Positions 33,666 to 40,955 of a stretch of 51,865 bases of DNA are shown here, piece by piece. How positions within the stretch are numbered: position 1 is the first letter of the stretch; each line of letters opens with the position of its first letter. The stretch is from positions 1 to 51,865 of the forward strand of contig CADBWP010000017.1 of assembly GCA_902798365.1 (NCBI GenBank). The letters run 5' to 3'. Made by a program: the position numbers and the translations under genes. This DNA comes from an uncultured Ruminococcus sp. GTDB lineage: Bacteria > Bacillota > Clostridia > Oscillospirales > Acutalibacteraceae. Under the pieces are notes generated by a model. The model did not search any database and was not told where the DNA came from. It worked only from the letters and a program-made list of their open reading frames with translations.

Positions 33666-35012
33666 TCAGATAATGTGACCCTTTGCGCGAATAACGTCGA
33701 TAACCTGATCTACGTACTTTTCGCAGGTCTCGTTTGAGTCTGCCTCTACCATTACGCGAATAACGGGCTCGGTGCCGGACTCTCTGAGCAGGATCCTGCC
33801 GTTGCTGCCCAATGCCTCGGCAACCTTTGCGACCTCGCTCTGAACGTCGGGGTCGTTCTTTGCGTCGGGCTTGGATTTTACCCTTACGTTTTTGAGCACC
33901 TGGGGATACATCACCATGGGAGCGGCGATCTCGCTCATGGGCTTCTCCTTGGCGAGCATTACCTCCATCAGCTTGAGCGAGGTGAGGATACCGTCGCCCG
34001 TTGTGGCATACTTTGAGAAGATGATGTGACCCGACTCCTCGCCGCCGAGACGGTTGCCGGTTTGCAGCATGTTTTCATAAACATACTTGTCGCCGACGTT
34101 TACCTTGTCATATTCAATGCCGATCTTGTCGAGCGCCTTAAAGAGTCCGAAGTTGCTCATGATGGTCGCAACGACCTTGTTGTTGAGCAGCTTGCCCCTC
34201 TCCTTCATATATCTGCCATAAACATAGATGATGTGGTCGCCTGTTACAACGTTGCCCTTTTCGTCAACAGCGAGGCAGCGGTCGGCGTCTCCGTCGTAGG
34301 CAAAGCCCACGTCAAGACCCTTTTCCACTACAAACTTTTGCAGCACGTCGATGTGGGTTGAGCCGCAGTTTGTGTTGATGTTGTAGCCGTCGGGATGATC
34401 GTTGATGACATAGGTCTTTGCGCCCAGAGCGTTGAACACGCCCTTGGCGATCTGCCATGCGGCGCCGTTTGAAACGTCCAGACCGACCTTTACGCCCTTG
34501 AAGCTGTATTTGCTCATAGAGATAAGGTAGCCGATGTAGCGGTTGCGACCCTCAACATAGTCAACGGTGCGGCCGATGTTCTCTCTTTCGGCTACGGGGA
34601 TCTCGATCTTGTCGTCGATGTACTCCTCGACCTTGAGCAGGGTCTCCTCCTCCATCTTCTCGCCCTTGCTGTTGAGCAGCTTTATGCCGTTGTCATAGAA
34701 GGGGTTGTGAGATGCCGAGATCATGATGCCGCAGTCAAAGTCGTCTGTGCGGGTGATGTACGCAACCGAGGGAGTGGTGGTTACGTGCATGATGTATGCG
34801 TCGGCTCCGCTTGCCATAAGACCTGTGCACAGCGCATACTCAAACATATAGGATGAACGGCGGGTGTCCTTGCCGATAACTACCTTTGCCTTTTTGCCCA
34901 TGTTGGTGCCGAAATACCAGCCCAAAAAGCGTCCGATTTTTACGGCGTGATCAAAGGTCAGGTTTTTGTTTGCCTCGCCTCTGAAGCCGTCGGTGCCGAA
35001 ATACTTTCCCAT
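33666..35012 (-). CDS. glmM: Phosphoglucosamine mutase GlmM
   Basis: A 448-residue phosphohexomutase converting GlcN6P to GlcN1P for UDP-GlcNAc and peptidoglycan. The catalytic phosphoserine is Ser101 in ISASHNPF, the metal loop is DGDADRC near 240, the sugar loop GGEESGH, and the phosphate loop RESGTEPVIRVMVE at the end. The ATG overlaps the upstream stop as TGATG, so it is coupled to the beta-helix gene. It is the last gene of the nagB operon, so likely under control of the ribozyme at its head. Confidence 0.96.
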   Translation of the reverse strand: MGKYFGTDGFRGEANKNLTFDHAVKIGRFLGWYFGTNMGKKAKVVIGKDTRRSSYMFEYALCTGLMASGADAYIMHVTTTPSVAYITRTDDFDCGIMISASHNPFYDNGIKLLNSKGEKMEEETLLKVEEYIDDKIEIPVAERENIGRTVDYVEGRNRYIGYLISMSKYSFKGVKVGLDVSNGAAWQIAKGVFNALGAKTYVINDHPDGYNINTNCGSTHIDVLQKFVVEKGLDVGFAYDGDADRCLAVDEKGNVVTGDHIIYVYGRYMKERGKLLNNKVVATIMSNFGLFKALDKIGIEYDKVNVGDKYVYENMLQTGNRLGGEESGHIIFSKYATTGDGILTSLKLMEVMLAKEKPMSEIAAPMVMYPQVLKNVRVKSKPDAKNDPDVQSEVAKVAEALGSNGRILLRESGTEPVIRVMVEADSNETCEKYVDQVIDVIRAKGHII

Positions 35013-35674
35013 CAGTCAGCCTTCCTTTCAATTACGGTGCCGTTGTTCTTAAAAATGCAGTTTTCGGGGATCATGCCGCGCACGCAGGACGTGGGATACA
35101 CGCTTGAGTGACGGCCGATCACCGTGCCGGGGTTGCAAACGGCGTTGCAGCCAACCTCTACATAGTCGCCGAGCATTGCGCCGAACTTTTTGATTCCGGT
35201 CTCTACAGCCTCGTCGCCGTTGTGAACAACAACAAGCTTTTTGTCGGATTTTACGTTGGATGTGATGGAGCCTGCGCCCATGTGCGAGAAGTAGCCAAGA
35301 ATGGAGTCGCCCACATAGTTGTAGTGGGGAGTTTGAACATGGTCGAAAAGGATAACGTTTTTAAGCTCTACCGAGTTGCCCACTACGCAGTCGGCGCCCA
35401 CGAGAGCCGAGCCTCTGATGAACGCGCCGTGTCTTACCTCGGTTCCGGGACCGATAATGCAGGGAGCGCCCAAATATGCCGAGGGAAATACCTTGGCGGT
35501 CTTGTGCACCCACACGCCGGGCTCTCTTTGCTCGTAGTCGCCGCCGAGGGTGGGGCCGAGCTCAAGAATGAAGTCCTTGATGCCCTTAAGCGCCTCCCAA
35601 GGATATGTGAACTGTGAAAGATAGTCCTTTGCAAGCGTATGGTCGAGATCGTAAAGATCTTTTATCGTTAACAT
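35012..35674 (-). CDS. Left-handed beta-helix acyltransferase, GlmU C-terminal-like
   Basis: A 220-residue protein. After an N-terminal helical part come hexapeptide repeats (VFPSAYLGAPCIIGPGTEV and onward) forming a left-handed beta helix. VGDSILGYFSHMGAGSITSNVKSDKK and KKFGAMLGDYVEVGCNAVCNPGTVIG resemble the GlmU acetyl-CoA half, and there is no uridyltransferase half. With nagB before and glmM after it, acetylation of GlcN1P to GlcNAc1P is the likely reaction; nucleotide-sugar-pyrophosphorylase names used for such proteins do not fit the missing domain. Start ATG overlaps the nagB stop (TAATG). Confidence 0.85.
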   Translation of the reverse strand: MLTIKDLYDLDHTLAKDYLSQFTYPWEALKGIKDFILELGPTLGGDYEQREPGVWVHKTAKVFPSAYLGAPCIIGPGTEVRHGAFIRGSALVGADCVVGNSVELKNVILFDHVQTPHYNYVGDSILGYFSHMGAGSITSNVKSDKKLVVVHNGDEAVETGIKKFGAMLGDYVEVGCNAVCNPGTVIGRHSSVYPTSCVRGMIPENCIFKNNGTVIERKAD

Positions 35675-36465
35675 TAAAGTCTCTCCTTCTGCTCAATGTC
35701 AAGGAAGTATTTGTAGGTATCAACGGTCAACTCGCCGCAGGCAGCCTCGTCGCAGGCGATGATGGCGCCGTTGTGCATCTGCAAAGCGGAGCAGGTCCAC
35801 TTGTGGCTTACGCTGCCCTCTACGGTCTCGGCAAGAGCTCTCGCCTTGTTGTGGCCGTTGATAAGAATGAGAACCTCTTTTGAATCGGTAACTGTGCCCA
35901 CGCCTACCGAAAGAGCCTGAGCGGGAACCGCCTCGGGATCGTTGCCGAAGAAGCGTGAGTTGACGATCCTGGTGTCGGTGGTCAGGTTTCTTACGCCCGT
36001 GCGCGATGCAAGGCTTGTAAAGGGCTCGTTGAAGGCGATGTGTCCGTCAACGCCGATGCCGCCCATGAACAGGTCGATGCCGCCGTAGGAAGCGATCTTC
36101 TCCTCATATCTTTTGCACTCGCCCTCGGGATCGTCGGTCATGCCGTTGAGGATGTTGATGTTCTCCTTCTTCATATCGGTAAGATGATCGAAGAAGTTGT
36201 CGTGCATGAAGTACCAGTAGCTCTGGTCGTGCTCGTGGGGAAGTCCGAGGTATTCGTCCATGTTGAAGGTGACTACGTTGGCAAAGGAAAGCTCGCCGTT
36301 TTGGTTCATGGTGTAAAGCTCCTTATAAACGCCGATGGGCGAAGAGCCTGTGGGAAGCCCCAGAACAAAGGGACGATCCTCTTTGTGGTTTTTGATTTTC
36401 TGAGCGATGTAGTTTGCCGCCCACTTGCACATTTTATCGTAATTGTCCTGAATAACAACTCTCAT
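35674..36465 (-). CDS. nagB: Glucosamine-6-phosphate deaminase/isomerase NagB
   Basis: A 263-residue enzyme reversibly converting GlcN6P and fructose-6-P plus ammonia. LGLPTGSSPIGVYKEL is the phosphate loop, FNMDEYLGL carries the catalytic Asp, and GIGVDGHIAFNEP the ring-opening His. Length is typical of NagB. AAGGAG lies 8 bp before the ATG. It is the first gene of a coupled three-gene unit with the acyltransferase and glmM, and its leader holds a glmS-type ribozyme. That setting is biosynthetic; no nagA or GlcNAc uptake gene is nearby, so the enzyme may run toward GlcN6P. Confidence 0.95.
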   Translation of the reverse strand: MRVVIQDNYDKMCKWAANYIAQKIKNHKEDRPFVLGLPTGSSPIGVYKELYTMNQNGELSFANVVTFNMDEYLGLPHEHDQSYWYFMHDNFFDHLTDMKKENINILNGMTDDPEGECKRYEEKIASYGGIDLFMGGIGVDGHIAFNEPFTSLASRTGVRNLTTDTRIVNSRFFGNDPEAVPAQALSVGVGTVTDSKEVLILINGHNKARALAETVEGSVSHKWTCSALQMHNGAIIACDEAACGELTVDTYKYFLDIEQKERL

Positions 36466-36510
36466 AATTATTCTCCTTAGACCTTAAGCAGGTAATTTTT
36501 AGTAATAAGA

Positions 36511-36650
36511 TAAAGTGACGGAAGAACCTTTGTTACAGTTTTGATTCTGCTTTTTCCTTTCTTCCTATCGACACACCTTGCCGTGGCGGCATCCGCCGAA
36601 TCTTTCGATAACCGCCATTCCTCGTCAACCCTTTCGGGTCCGGGCGCTAA
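36511..36650 (-). ncRNA. glmS-type GlcN6P-activated self-cleaving ribozyme
   Basis: Read leftward, the cleavage site is A36648 / G36647 in TTAGCGCC. It continues CGGACCC-GAAA-GGGTTGACGAGG, a P1 stem with a tetraloop and the invariant GTTGACGAGG. The stem GGCGGTTATCGA / GATGCCGCC with TTCGGCGG follows, which also pairs with GCGCC (P2.1). P3 is CGGC / GTCG with a 7-nt loop whose AAGGTG (36574-36579) can pair with CACTTT (36512-36517), the P3.1 pseudoknot. P4 is GGAAGAA / TTCTTCC. All core elements of the class are present, so it should be active. It sits 46 bp ahead of nagB. In the known class GlcN6P triggers cleavage and mRNA decay. Confidence 0.93.
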
Positions 36651-36814
36651 CAGTCTCCGCTTCTCCTTTCTCTCAGAGGCTATTTTACTATTGTATTGCC
36701 GTCAGCCCTCAAAAATTCATTTTGCGCTGAGGCGGCTTATACCATGGCATTTTCATACAAAATGCTCCCGGCACAAACCATAAAAATTCTACCATAAGGC
36801 GCTGTAAAAGTCAA

Positions 36815-36962
36815 GGCAATACCGCATAATTCAGGTGTACGGATTGCGCAGCAAGATTTTTCGTCAGGTTGAACAAATAAATCGAGGTAAGGCTGACGCC
36901 TTGCCGAGACTGACGGAATAATATTCAAGCAAGCCGTGCGCCTTGATTTGTGCGGTGTTGCC
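36815..36962 (+). repeat. MITE-like element B, copy 5 (148 bp)
   Basis: GGCAATACCGCATAATTCAG at the left and TTGTGCGGTGTTGCC at the right. TCAA flanks both sides (36811-36814 and 36963-36966). It occupies the upstream part of the nagB leader region. The rest of the 557-bp gap (36466-37022) holds the ribozyme and the nagB promoter region, for which I could not fix the boxes. Confidence 0.87.
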
Positions 36963-37022
36963 TCAAGTGTTTTTGCGGCGCAGACGAACGGGCGCAGTCC
37001 TTGCCGACCGCGCCCGTTTGCG

Positions 37023-37622
37023 TTATTTATCATCAATTATCCTGCCCTTTTCAACGTTCGGCAAAATGAATGTGCCGAGCGAGTGCTCCCACAGCTTTTT
37101 TGAGCCCTTAGGGGTTATTTCGTTGCGCTTTAGTATCTGACTGAGCCTTACGCCGCTCTCTGTCCACGCTTTTCCGTCGGTGGCAAAGTTGAGCATTGCC
37201 GGCTGGATATTGTCCATAGCCCGGGCAAACCTCGCCTCGGCGGTCTCCCCCGCCTCAAACTCGTCCCACAGCGCCCTCAGCTTTTCGCCCTGGTCGGGCG
37301 GAAGTATGCCGAAAAGCCTGTCTGCGGCTCTCTGCTCGCGCTCCTGCCGGGTGGTGTTTGCCTGCTCGTCATAGGCAAAGGTGTCGCCCGCGTCTATCTC
37401 CACAACGTCGTGTATAAGAATCATTGATATTGTGCGCAGCATATCCACCGGCTCGTTGGCGTATTCGCCCAGCAAAAGGCACATAACAGCCATGTGCCAC
37501 GCGTGCTCGGCGTCGTTTTCGCGGTCAATGCCGTTTGACTTGAAGGTGTGGCGCATTATCTGCTTTTCCTTGTCCGCCTCAAGACAAAACTCCATCTGCC
37601 GCCTGAGTCTGTCGTCTGTCAT
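37023..37622 (-). CDS. HD-domain hydrolase, YfbR/HD_3 type
   Basis: A 199-residue metal-dependent phosphohydrolase of the HD superfamily. The metal ligands are His33 (QIMRHTFKSNGIDRENDAEHAWHMAVM) and the EHAWH segment, LIHDVVEIDAGD (HD pair), and ARAMDNIQPAMLNF. The closest described group is 5'-nucleotidases and putative hydrolases of oxetanocin type; the substrate is not known. GGAGG lies 6 bp before the ATG. It starts 15 bp after the stop of the leucine-rich repeat gene, so the two may share a transcript although no functional link is apparent. Confidence 0.85.
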   Translation of the reverse strand: MTDDRLRRQMEFCLEADKEKQIMRHTFKSNGIDRENDAEHAWHMAVMCLLLGEYANEPVDMLRTISMILIHDVVEIDAGDTFAYDEQANTTRQEREQRAADRLFGILPPDQGEKLRALWDEFEAGETAEARFARAMDNIQPAMLNFATDGKAWTESGVRLSQILKRNEITPKGSKKLWEHSLGTFILPNVEKGRIIDDK

Positions 37623-37637
37623 GTTATCCTCCGGTCA

Positions 37638-40600
37638 TCAATACAAATCAAACTTTTCGATCTCTTCCGCCACGTACATCTGAATACGCGTGACATCATT
37701 AATGTCGATCCATCCGTTGCTGTCAACGTCGGAAGCGCGGTAGTCGCCCTCGTCGTTCCAAGGTATTATCGCCGGGGTGCCGTCCTCCTCGGTATAATCT
37801 GCAATAAAGCGCTGAAGCTCTGTGCAGTCCCGAATACTGACCCTGCCGTCGCCGTTGACGTCGCCTGTTATTATTTCATCGCGGATACGCGGAAGCCATT
37901 GCAGCTCCCTTACCCATTTACCGCAGCGGCTGCATTTCTCGCTCTCGGTTTTGCCGATATGAGTGTGCGTGGCTGCTCTGCCGGGAAACACAACCGTGTC
38001 ATGCCCAAGCGCGGGAATGACCTCTTGTTCGACGATAGTCTCACCGCAGCGCGTACAATGACTGCCGTCTGTACGTCCTTCTTTTGTGCAGGAAGGCGCA
38101 ATCGCCGCATCCGTTTTTGGTTTGTGCCCCGGTGGGATCACCTGTTGTTCTCTCACCGCTTGTCCGCATGATGTACAGGTCATGCCGAAGGAGACGCCCT
38201 CCTCCGTGCAGGATGGCGGAGCCTCACCCAACACAAAGGTTACATTTGCGGGTGACAGTCCGGCGTGACAATGCGGACATTCACTCTCCAGCAGCTCATA
38301 GCTCTTACCGATTATCTGCGCAACTCTTTTCACGTTTGAATCAGGGAAGCAATAAAGCGTGACGTTATTGCAATACCGGAACGGCTCCCAAAACGATTCC
38401 GTGCACAAAGTATCACCATCCTCTGCGAAAATAACGTTTTCAAGCTTGTAGCAGCCGCAAAAGGCTTCCTGCCCTATAAAAACATCACCTTTAATAAGCA
38501 AATCTTTAACATCGCTGTATTCAAACGCATAATTTCCGATATAACCTACGCTTTTGGGGAGCACCACGTTTTCCAGCTTATCGCAATATCTGAACGCGGC
38601 ATATCCGATACTTCCGACACCCTCGCAAACGGTAAGACTTTTAAGCTCAGTACATCCCTCAAATTCATGATCGGGAATTACCCAAACGCTGCCCGGAACG
38701 GTTACACCGATCAAATCCGTGCAATAATAAAACACCTTATCACATATCTTAACAGTTCCTTCTTTTATAATTACATTTTCAGGGCTGCCTGTAGGCACAT
38801 ATTTATAGGCTATCCTGCCGACATAGGTCAGTCCCCCGGGCAGATTATTATTCCATTCGGTTCCGTCAAAGGCATTTTCACCAAGCTCGGTAATGTTTTC
38901 ACCAAAGGATAACTCCTTAAGCCCTGTACACCCGTAAAAGGCTTTTTCGCCGATCGCCGTCACTCCGTTTCCTATCGTAACACTTGTAAGGTTTGTGTTT
39001 CCGTTAAACCCGTCGATCTCTTTTGTTATGCTGTCGGGGATCGTGATAGTGTTAAAACAAGAAAAACCGGAAAAAGGATTGTACGCTGCGCTGTTATATT
39101 CCTCGGGCAGAACCAAATCGGTCACAAGTTGGTTGTTAAGGAAAAGATTATCGGCGCCGAGATTTGGCGGAATATCCGAAAGAACATCATGCCATTGCCA
39201 CTCGTCAAACTCCTGCCGATAGCCCTGATATTTGATTTTTACAAACTCGACCAAATCGCTTATATATATGTTTTTGCAGGAAACAGAACCATCCATTACA
39301 CAACTGAGGCTCGGGGGGATTGTGATTTTTTCAAGACGGTAGCCCGAAAAAGCTTTTTCGCCTATAGTTGTTACGCCGTTTGGAATTGTAACCTCGGTTA
39401 ATCCCGTGCATCCGGAGAAGCCCTCGTCATTTATTCTTGTTAAGCCGGTCGGAAGCTCAATGTCGGTAAGCCCCGTACAACCCGAAAATGCTTTTACACC
39501 GATAGTTGTTACGCCGTTTGGAATTGTGACCTCGGTTAATCCCGTACATCCGGCGAATACCCCGTCATTTATTACTGTTAAGCCGGTCGGAAGCTCGATG
39601 TCGGTAAGCCCCGTACAACCCGAAAATGCGCTTTCCCGGATTTCGGTCACAGAATCGGGAATATCAACATGCTTTAGGAGCGCTTGATTGGAAAAAGCCG
39701 ATTGACAGATATAATTTGTTCCGTCCTTAACGGTCACGCTTTCGGGACATTCACCGACATATTTATACACAGTTTTTCCTACATAAACCAAGCCCTGCGG
39801 CAGGTTGTTTTTCCACGCGGTATTATCAAAAGCATTGGACTCTAAATGTGACACATTTTTTGCACCGTTGATAATTGATAATGATGTGCAGCCCTCAAAA
39901 GCGTACCCGCCGATATCTGTTACGCTGTCCGGTATTTTGATTTCGGTTATTCCTGTGCAGCCGCTAAACGCGTTATTTCCGATATTTGTTACACCGTCGG
40001 AAATAAAAACCTCGGTCAGGCTTGTACACCCGGAAAACGCACTGGAACTATTAGTCACGCCGTCCGGAATATTAATACCGGTCAGGCTTGTACACCCGGA
40101 AAACGCACCGGAAATATCGGTCACGCCGTCCGGAATATTAATACCGGTCAGGCTTGTGCAACCCTGAAACGCACATCTTAAATCGGTCACACTATCGGGA
40201 ATATTAACGCCGGTCAGGCTTGTACAGCCGGAAAACGCATACCAGCCTATAGACACGACACTATCGGGAATATTGATACCGGTCAGGCTTGTACAGCCGG
40301 AAAACGCATACCAGCCTATAGACACAACACTATCAGGTAAGAAAATTGTTTTTAATTCTGTTTGCTGCTCAAAAGCATTTCTGTTTACTCCTATTGTATC
40401 GTTTTTTAAACTGATGCTTTCGGGGCACGTTCCCTTATATTTATAGGCTAATCCGCCGAGATACACCATCCCCTCCGGTTGGTTTTTGTACCACGGCGTT
40501 CCTTCAATGCCGGTATCGACGGCTTCCTCTACATTTCTTGCACCGTTGATATTCGTAAGGGCGGAGCAACCTCTAAACGCATAATATCCGATTTCGGTTA

Positions 40601-40955
40601 CGCTGTCGGGCACAGTTATTTGTGTCATTTTTTCACATTCCCAAAATGCATAGGTGCCGATATTTGTTACACCTTCCTCAATAACAACCGTCAAAACTCC
40701 TGAAGAACCCCAAGGCGGAGGATTTTGCCCCATATAGTCCCAGGAATAATATCCCATCTCTCCGTTTCCGCTTATGGTCAGCACACCGTTATTATCAAGC
40801 GTCCATGTGCAATCGCCCGTTGTGCCGCTCTGTATGCCGACGGAGCCGTCGTTGATTACCGCGGCAAATGTCTGCGACGGAACAGCGGCAAAAGCAGTAA
40901 ATGCCATGCATAATATGAGCAAAACAGAGGTTATGTTTTTAAAAGACCTACTCAA
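37638..40955 (-). CDS. BspA-type leucine-rich-repeat surface protein with C-terminal dockerin
   Basis: A 1105-residue secreted protein. The signal peptide runs to about residue 31 (QTFAA). From about 75 to 870 there are LRR_5 repeats of the BspA/Treponema type, with units such as FSGCTSLTGINIPDSV, mediating binding to host or other proteins in known members. From about 900 to 1020 come three CxxC-type segments (CPHC, CTSCG, CTRCGE, CSRCGKW). A type I dockerin ends the protein with calcium loops DVNGDGRVSIRD and DVDSNGWIDIND. It starts with TTG, supported by GGGAGGG 7 bp upstream. An extended -10 (TGATATAAT, 40991-40996) lies before it. Two neighbouring LRR units at 40195-40340 are nearly identical in DNA. 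Confidence 0.9.
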   Translation of the reverse strand: MSRSFKNITSVLLILCMAFTAFAAVPSQTFAAVINDGSVGIQSGTTGDCTWTLDNNGVLTISGNGEMGYYSWDYMGQNPPPWGSSGVLTVVIEEGVTNIGTYAFWECEKMTQITVPDSVTEIGYYAFRGCSALTNINGARNVEEAVDTGIEGTPWYKNQPEGMVYLGGLAYKYKGTCPESISLKNDTIGVNRNAFEQQTELKTIFLPDSVVSIGWYAFSGCTSLTGINIPDSVVSIGWYAFSGCTSLTGVNIPDSVTDLRCAFQGCTSLTGINIPDGVTDISGAFSGCTSLTGINIPDGVTNSSSAFSGCTSLTEVFISDGVTNIGNNAFSGCTGITEIKIPDSVTDIGGYAFEGCTSLSIINGAKNVSHLESNAFDNTAWKNNLPQGLVYVGKTVYKYVGECPESVTVKDGTNYICQSAFSNQALLKHVDIPDSVTEIRESAFSGCTGLTDIELPTGLTVINDGVFAGCTGLTEVTIPNGVTTIGVKAFSGCTGLTDIELPTGLTRINDEGFSGCTGLTEVTIPNGVTTIGEKAFSGYRLEKITIPPSLSCVMDGSVSCKNIYISDLVEFVKIKYQGYRQEFDEWQWHDVLSDIPPNLGADNLFLNNQLVTDLVLPEEYNSAAYNPFSGFSCFNTITIPDSITKEIDGFNGNTNLTSVTIGNGVTAIGEKAFYGCTGLKELSFGENITELGENAFDGTEWNNNLPGGLTYVGRIAYKYVPTGSPENVIIKEGTVKICDKVFYYCTDLIGVTVPGSVWVIPDHEFEGCTELKSLTVCEGVGSIGYAAFRYCDKLENVVLPKSVGYIGNYAFEYSDVKDLLIKGDVFIGQEAFCGCYKLENVIFAEDGDTLCTESFWEPFRYCNNVTLYCFPDSNVKRVAQIIGKSYELLESECPHCHAGLSPANVTFVLGEAPPSCTEEGVSFGMTCTSCGQAVREQQVIPPGHKPKTDAAIAPSCTKEGRTDGSHCTRCGETIVEQEVIPALGHDTVVFPGRAATHTHIGKTESEKCSRCGKWVRELQWLPRIRDEIITGDVNGDGRVSIRDCTELQRFIADYTEEDGTPAIIPWNDEGDYRASDVDSNGWIDINDVTRIQMYVAEEIEKFDLY

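Follow-up and report, generated by a model that had tools for sequence, protein, structure and literature searches.

A glmS-class ribozyme in the leader of nagB in an uncultured Ruminococcus and its relatives

De novo synthesis of bacterial amino sugars is generally taken to start at GlmS, and the glmS ribozyme to be its switch and a drug target. The logic of this switch is that the cofactor of the ribozyme, glucosamine-6-phosphate (GlcN6P), is the product of the enzyme being controlled, and in Bacillus subtilis the cleaved glmS mRNA, which bears a 5'-OH, is degraded by RNase J. Of 463 glmS ribozymes in a survey of 2011, all except two reportedly lay in glmS mRNAs. In view of these two exceptions, we claim no priority for the pairing with nagB described here. 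The passages on nagB in PMC10668854, PMC7967978, PMC6171935 and PMC10128067 describe no ribozyme on that gene.

The window that we analysed is a stretch of 51,865 nucleotides from an uncultured Ruminococcus sp. (contig CADBWP010000017.1), and three described systems resemble its nagB locus. With the glmS ribozyme-riboswitch of glmS mRNAs (RF00234; Bacillus subtilis, Thermoanaerobacter), it shares the core, helices P1 to P4, the P3.1 pairing, the position in a 5' leader and the presence of an RNase J-type enzyme, but its ribozyme heads nagB, an acyltransferase gene and glmM, belongs to a branch of its own, and occurs in a genome whose glmS is without a detected ribozyme. The catabolic nagAB operons, such as nagBA of Escherichia coli, have the same NagB family in its long form, whereas here no nagA adjoins, the partners are glmM and the acyltransferase, and a ribozyme of the GlcN6P class leads. 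In common with the glmS-glmM-glmU synthesis genes, the locus has glmM and an acyltransferase like the C-terminal half of GlmU; in contrast to them, NagB is found in place of GlmS and the acyltransferase has no uridylyltransferase half. As judged by eye, the protein encoded elsewhere in the window at 37638-40955 (minus strand) is large, looks secreted, contains leucine-rich-repeat-like repeats and has a dockerin-like C-terminus.

The ribozyme and the genes that follow it

The Rfam model RF00234 matches positions 36510-36659 of the minus strand over all 167 model positions, with 69.5 bits against a gathering score of 37 (E 5.5e-14). An earlier note, made from the letters of the window, had proposed a glmS ribozyme before nagB, and the score places that proposal well above threshold. 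The core strings that it quoted for the class are present in the leader, and cleavage is predicted at the site that it named, between A36648 and G36647. The match lies 45 nt from the nagB start, and the ribozyme occupies the leader of this gene rather than the glmS mRNA in which the class is usually, though not of necessity, placed.

Selection on the RNA is indicated by covariation in an alignment of 40 nagB-linked ribozymes (A1). Its 37 pairs, P3.1 included, are formed in 94.6% of cells, and 195 cells carry double changes compared to 57 expected by shuffling, a value reached in 0 of 500 shuffles. Shuffling ignores relatedness; sliding the partners allows for it and falls far below the observed value, with at most 48 double-change cells. 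The pairing of the P3 loop with the 3' tail (P3.1), which the earlier note had suggested could form, was borne out when taken alone, with 80.1% of cells paired and 64 double-change cells versus 23.7 expected (0 of 500 shuffles as high), in a register that we picked by eye from that alignment. Among the five measures, the number of P3.1 pairs with a double change (6 versus 5.3 expected) is uninformative. RNAalifold, which does not model pseudoknots, returned 31 pairs, 17 of them with double changes. Score and covariation together rule out a chance match to RF00234.

Downstream of the ribozyme on the minus strand lie nagB (35674..36465), the acyltransferase gene (35012..35674) and glmM (33666..35012), and profile matches agree with the identities given to them previously. 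The 263-residue product of nagB is a glucosamine-6-phosphate deaminase of the long form (TIGR00502, 378.7 bits, cut-off 236.9) and is closest to solved deaminases. The second gene encodes a protein like the C-terminal, acetyltransferase half of the archaeal-type GlmU; it matches TIGR03992 over profile positions 212-393 with 139.6 bits, below the cut-off of 292.1 set for the full-length family, and its best solved relative is 2ggo (E 3.3e-22). The third encodes a phosphoglucosamine mutase (TIGR01455, 543.2 bits, cut-off 447.55). Because nagB and the acyltransferase gene, and the latter and glmM, overlap by one base each, the three genes very probably form one operon. The range 35674-36650 takes in nagB and the ribozyme from just 5' of its cleavage site, with the acyltransferase gene and glmM downstream of it.

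A promoter-like site, TTGACT-17-TAGAAT (36786..36814, minus strand), precedes the ribozyme and completes the order of promoter-like site, ribozyme, nagB, acyltransferase and glmM. The site, found by scanning as a consensus match, agrees with 10 of 12 consensus positions, has TG ahead of the -10 element, and ends 126 nt upstream of the ribozyme match. Among nagB-linked ribozymes with at least 200 nt of upstream sequence, 56 of 62 have such a site there, compared to 26% of shuffled upstreams. The earlier note had considered that nagB might be read from an internal promoter. However, no promoter-like site occurs between the ribozyme and the nagB start in the window, although in 3 of 64 nagB-linked relatives such a site follows the match within 60 nt. 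Nor was a terminator-like element found in window positions 36400-37100. Therefore, an expression platform besides cleavage is not evident. The anatomy of the leader, its conservation, and the position of the ribozyme at the head of permuted gene orders (see below) all support the joint control of nagB, the acyltransferase gene and glmM that had been proposed, and feedback control of the operon is a strong inference.

Recurrence of the pairing and a nagB-linked ribozyme branch

Using stricter filters, by which weak matches can be lost, we found 28 ribozymes in 26 of 60 genomes of the genus. These are exactly the 26 genomes with a long-type nagB, which is in pieces in G006, G024 and G052. The first tested gene downstream is nagB for 27 of the 28 ribozymes, and the 28th lies at a contig end. 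In other families of the order the class is placed as usual, with 10 of 11 ribozymes located 34-269 nt ahead of glmS. The eleventh is an orphan of 78.2 bits (L107 7635-7801, minus strand; G077:C6:62634-62800) with a same-strand malQ-like gene, named by eye, upstream; neither glmS nor nagB follows, and the glmS of G077 is elsewhere. As the malQ-like gene precedes it and neither of the expected genes follows, this ribozyme may lie in a 3' untranslated region.

The pairing extends to named relatives, for which we took the best 80 of 589 confirmed NagB loci. RF00234 detects a ribozyme in 36 of the 80 (16/20, 15/20, 5/20 and 0/20). A branch model, R1, built from alignment A1, detects 37, all with E < 1e-35, and no other locus reaches 0.1; the total is a lower bound, as the sequence available ahead of nagB is short at some loci (only 95 nt in L145). 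With the Rfam model the addition, L166 (2727-2923), has a low score or falls under the cut-off, and eleven of the genus ribozymes have 36.6-46 bits, compared to 110-147 bits with the model of their own branch. Rfam scans thus undercount the nagB-linked branch. With 26 of 60 genus genomes and 37 of the best 80 of 589 NagB loci carrying it, the pairing that the earlier note suggested looking for in related genomes is present there, and a genus-specific oddity is ruled out by the named relatives. By record title the carriers include Ruminococcaceae, Lachnospiraceae, Erysipelotrichaceae, Solobacterium, Parasporobacterium and others, these being the labels of the titles only, and many titles refer to ruminant gut samples. 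One carrier of the pair, Ruminococcaceae bacterium P7 (L117), has a title without a MAG label.

The gene order behind the ribozyme varies. In the 37 ribozyme loci among the best 80 of 589, the first gene is nagB in 30, the acyltransferase gene in 6 and glmM in 1, so the ribozyme marks a run of genes and not one gene. A same-strand glmM or acyltransferase gene lies within 3 kb in 30 of these 37 loci, compared to 18 of the 43 without a ribozyme. L176 has the order ribozyme-glmM-nagB-glmS, and L151 a lone ribozyme-nagB pair followed by yvcK/glmR (TIGR01826, 268 bits). One genome, G130, has two ribozymes, a copy at nagB with 136.7 bits by R1 and a copy directly ahead of glmS with 61.9 bits; the copy at nagB falls within the cassette branch and so is unlike a local duplicate. 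In each of the remaining 35 of 36 named carriers, the stricter filters leave a single match, at nagB. It is highly improbable that the ribozyme is a relic riding with the cassette and regulating nothing. The 43 loci that show none, some of them with little upstream DNA, and the modest Rfam scores of the eleven genus ribozymes would fit a relic, but those same eleven score strongly with their own model, compensatory changes affect most helices including P3.1, and the ribozyme stays ahead of the genes however these are permuted.

A tree of 74 ribozymes divides the 62 linked to nagB from 12 others with a split support of 0.942, which we read as support rather than proof, given that the alignment was fitted to the nagB-branch model and that the other side is sampled by just 12 ribozymes. 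Seven positions are diagnostic of the nagB-linked branch, including one column where every one of the 12 others has G and 61 of the 62 have T. Such a branch could have kept the fold and changed its effector or output, for example by using another amino-sugar phosphate as cofactor or by cleavage that raises expression, and excerpts of PMC11602151 report that a few active-site changes remove the requirement for GlcN6P. We nevertheless regard this explanation as quite improbable, since 28 of the 32 columns that are invariant in the 12 others are identical in all 62 nagB-linked ribozymes, an RNase J-type enzyme is present, and window positions 36400-37100 show no terminator-like element. The A and G of the cleavage site are invariant in both sets.

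To compare the cassette with the rest of the genome, we used protein identities between the window genome and 21 of the 36 named carriers. Three of the 21 are close kin, with GlmS 87-91% identical. In the remaining 18, NagB is 76-92% identical and, where found beside nagB, GlmM is 80-86% and the acyltransferase 80-88% identical, whereas GlmS is 43-54% identical. GlmS proteins of other families of the order are similarly low, at 47-60%, and so it is NagB that stands out. These identities suggest that the cassette has likely spread horizontally. Carriage on plasmids was considered and set aside; in plasmid records, NagB matches reach no more than 62.7% identity, and the cassette was not seen there.

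GlmS, NagA and the direction of the NagB reaction

The earlier note had suggested that NagB supplies GlcN6P, perhaps replacing or backing up GlmS. The source assembly (2.03 Mb, 86% complete) has one nagB and one RF00234 match, at that gene. It also has a single full copy of glmS, on another contig (C28; TIGR01135, 772 bits), with a short leader and a promoter that agrees with the consensus at 12 of 12 positions (TTGACA-17-TATAAT). No ribozyme was detected at this glmS by RF00234 or by the nagB-branch model. The ribozyme of the window therefore does not belong to a nearby glmS, and a nearby glmS with its own ribozyme, which the earlier note had listed, together with an internal promoter of nagB, as evidence against its reading, was not found in this assembly. 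Replacement of GlmS fails for the source genome, which keeps a full glmS, and backing up fits it. Replacement could fit only a minority, the 6 of 36 named carriers, of unstated completeness, without a glmS detected at E 1e-40 (G105, G106, G110, G118, G120 and G126). A full or partial glmS was found in the other 30, and at the same threshold none was detected in 6 of 14 chosen non-carriers; relaxing the threshold to E 1e-10 gave the 12 negative genomes at most matches to one half of glmS. A missing glmS is thus as common or commoner in non-carriers and is not specific to the ribozyme.

Within the genus, two ribozyme carriers (G006 and G058; 89% and 80% complete) have no glmS at E 1e-100, G035 has glmS as two contig pieces, and G033, reported as 100% complete and carrying the cassette, has it only as pieces spread over three frames with an internal stop (L108 4605-6316, G033:C34), from decay or assembly error. 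We treat these missing or broken copies as assembly-dependent hints and not as proof of loss. Four other genomes without glmS at E 1e-100 (G016, G025, G041 and G056) have a distant, short NagB adjoining glmM and no ribozyme, and at E 1e-10 a 41-bit glmS fragment appears in G016 only. In L109, L110, L111 and L112, of the genus and with no detected glmS, the short-form NagB is 38-39% identical over 198 aa and a divergent glmM (53-55%) adjoins it, possibly an independent replacement of GlmS without a ribozyme. G004 and G014 (81% and 84% complete) lack glmS, and no nagB was found in them either. In the wider order, the glmS-less G068, G076, G079 and G092 have neither ribozyme nor nagB. G068, G079, G092 and G096, with no full glmS, match only the isomerase half of GlmS, in frames of ~356-375 aa (with internal stops in G092), and a different route to GlcN6P is possible in these four.

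The NagB reaction is reversible in principle, and the ammonia of the rumen, which is high, would help amination. We considered whether a lost GlcNAc6P allosteric site might point to an anabolic NagB, and discarded this criterion because the altered residue (Arg to Gly, at what we take to be Arg158 of E. coli) occurs in 79 of the best 80 of 589 NagBs, with or without a ribozyme. Searches for nagA (TIGR00221, E 1e-20) found it in 0 of 60 genus genomes and in 23 of 38 genomes from other families of the order. The same search missed the control, Bacillus subtilis, which according to excerpts of PMC6171935 has NagA; some nagA genes were therefore missed, and absence from the genus is unproven. With six NagA queries on both strands of the best 80 of 589 loci, none of the 37 ribozyme loci had nagA nearby, and of the 43 others one did (L193, on the opposite strand). 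Elsewhere in the genome, 15 of 36 named carriers have nagA, as do 11 of 14 chosen non-carriers, and a catabolic or two-way NagB is possible in those carriers.

Such a role underlies an explanation in which an active ribozyme represses the operon while NagB remains a deaminase, the switch sparing GlcN6P or balancing hexosamine between glycolysis and the cell wall. NagB is indeed closest to solved deaminases, most carriers have glmS, and nagA is found elsewhere in some of them and could have escaped the genus search. Excerpts of PMC5902328 give the Akkermansia NagB a Km of 5.5 mM for fructose-6-phosphate and 41 mM for ammonium, and judge it unable to aminate at physiological conditions, the organism needing GlcNAc or GalNAc; those of PMC6171935 and PMC10128067 treat the B. 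subtilis NagB as a route back to glycolysis. The presence of glmS in the source genome and most carriers, together with the Akkermansia precedent, weakens the case for amination. Nevertheless, a deaminase repressed by its own substrate would create runaway feedback, no ribozyme locus among the best 80 has nagA nearby, the partners in the operon are biosynthetic, and G130 bears the same switch on both nagB and glmS. On balance, we consider the deaminase explanation unlikely. We favour NagB as a supplier of GlcN6P on genomic context, that is, because no nagA was found in the genus, because the neighbours are glmM, the acyltransferase gene, glmR or glmS, and because of the double placement in G130; the anabolic direction is our best reading.

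A proposed GlcN6P-controlled cassette

We therefore think it probable that this is a hexosamine-synthesis operon under GlcN6P feedback in which NagB would aminate fructose-6-phosphate beside, and sometimes instead of, GlmS. When GlcN6P is plentiful, the leader would cut itself at A36648/G36647, and the mRNA left with a 5'-OH would be degraded by RNase J, by analogy with Bacillus subtilis, leaving the operon silent. The source genome has one match over cut-off (610 bits) to TIGR00649, presumably RNase J. When GlcN6P is scarce, the intact mRNA would be translated, NagB would make GlcN6P from fructose-6-phosphate and ammonia, GlmM would convert this to GlcN-1-P, and the acyltransferase would form GlcNAc-1-P. 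Placing one switch on both nagB and glmM is logical if GlcN6P is the product of NagB; were GlcN6P consumed by NagB, the substrate would silence its own removal. In the source species the cassette would work beside a ribozyme-free glmS gene.

The placement is real and recurrent, and gives a known ribozyme class a second, apparently mobile regulon. We lean slightly towards the broader proposal that a horizontally moving cassette provides ruminant-gut Bacillota with an ammonia-fed second hexosamine route under GlcN6P feedback, its NagB acting as a genuine GlcN6P synthase in addition to GlmS and, in some lineages, in its place. If true, the recurrent ribozyme-nagB cassette would be a second regulon for the glmS ribozyme, and would offer a natural setting in which the disputed direction of NagB can be tested directly. 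It would also mean that some gut bacteria might circumvent GlcN6P mimics or GlmS blockers through a bypass that depends on ammonia.
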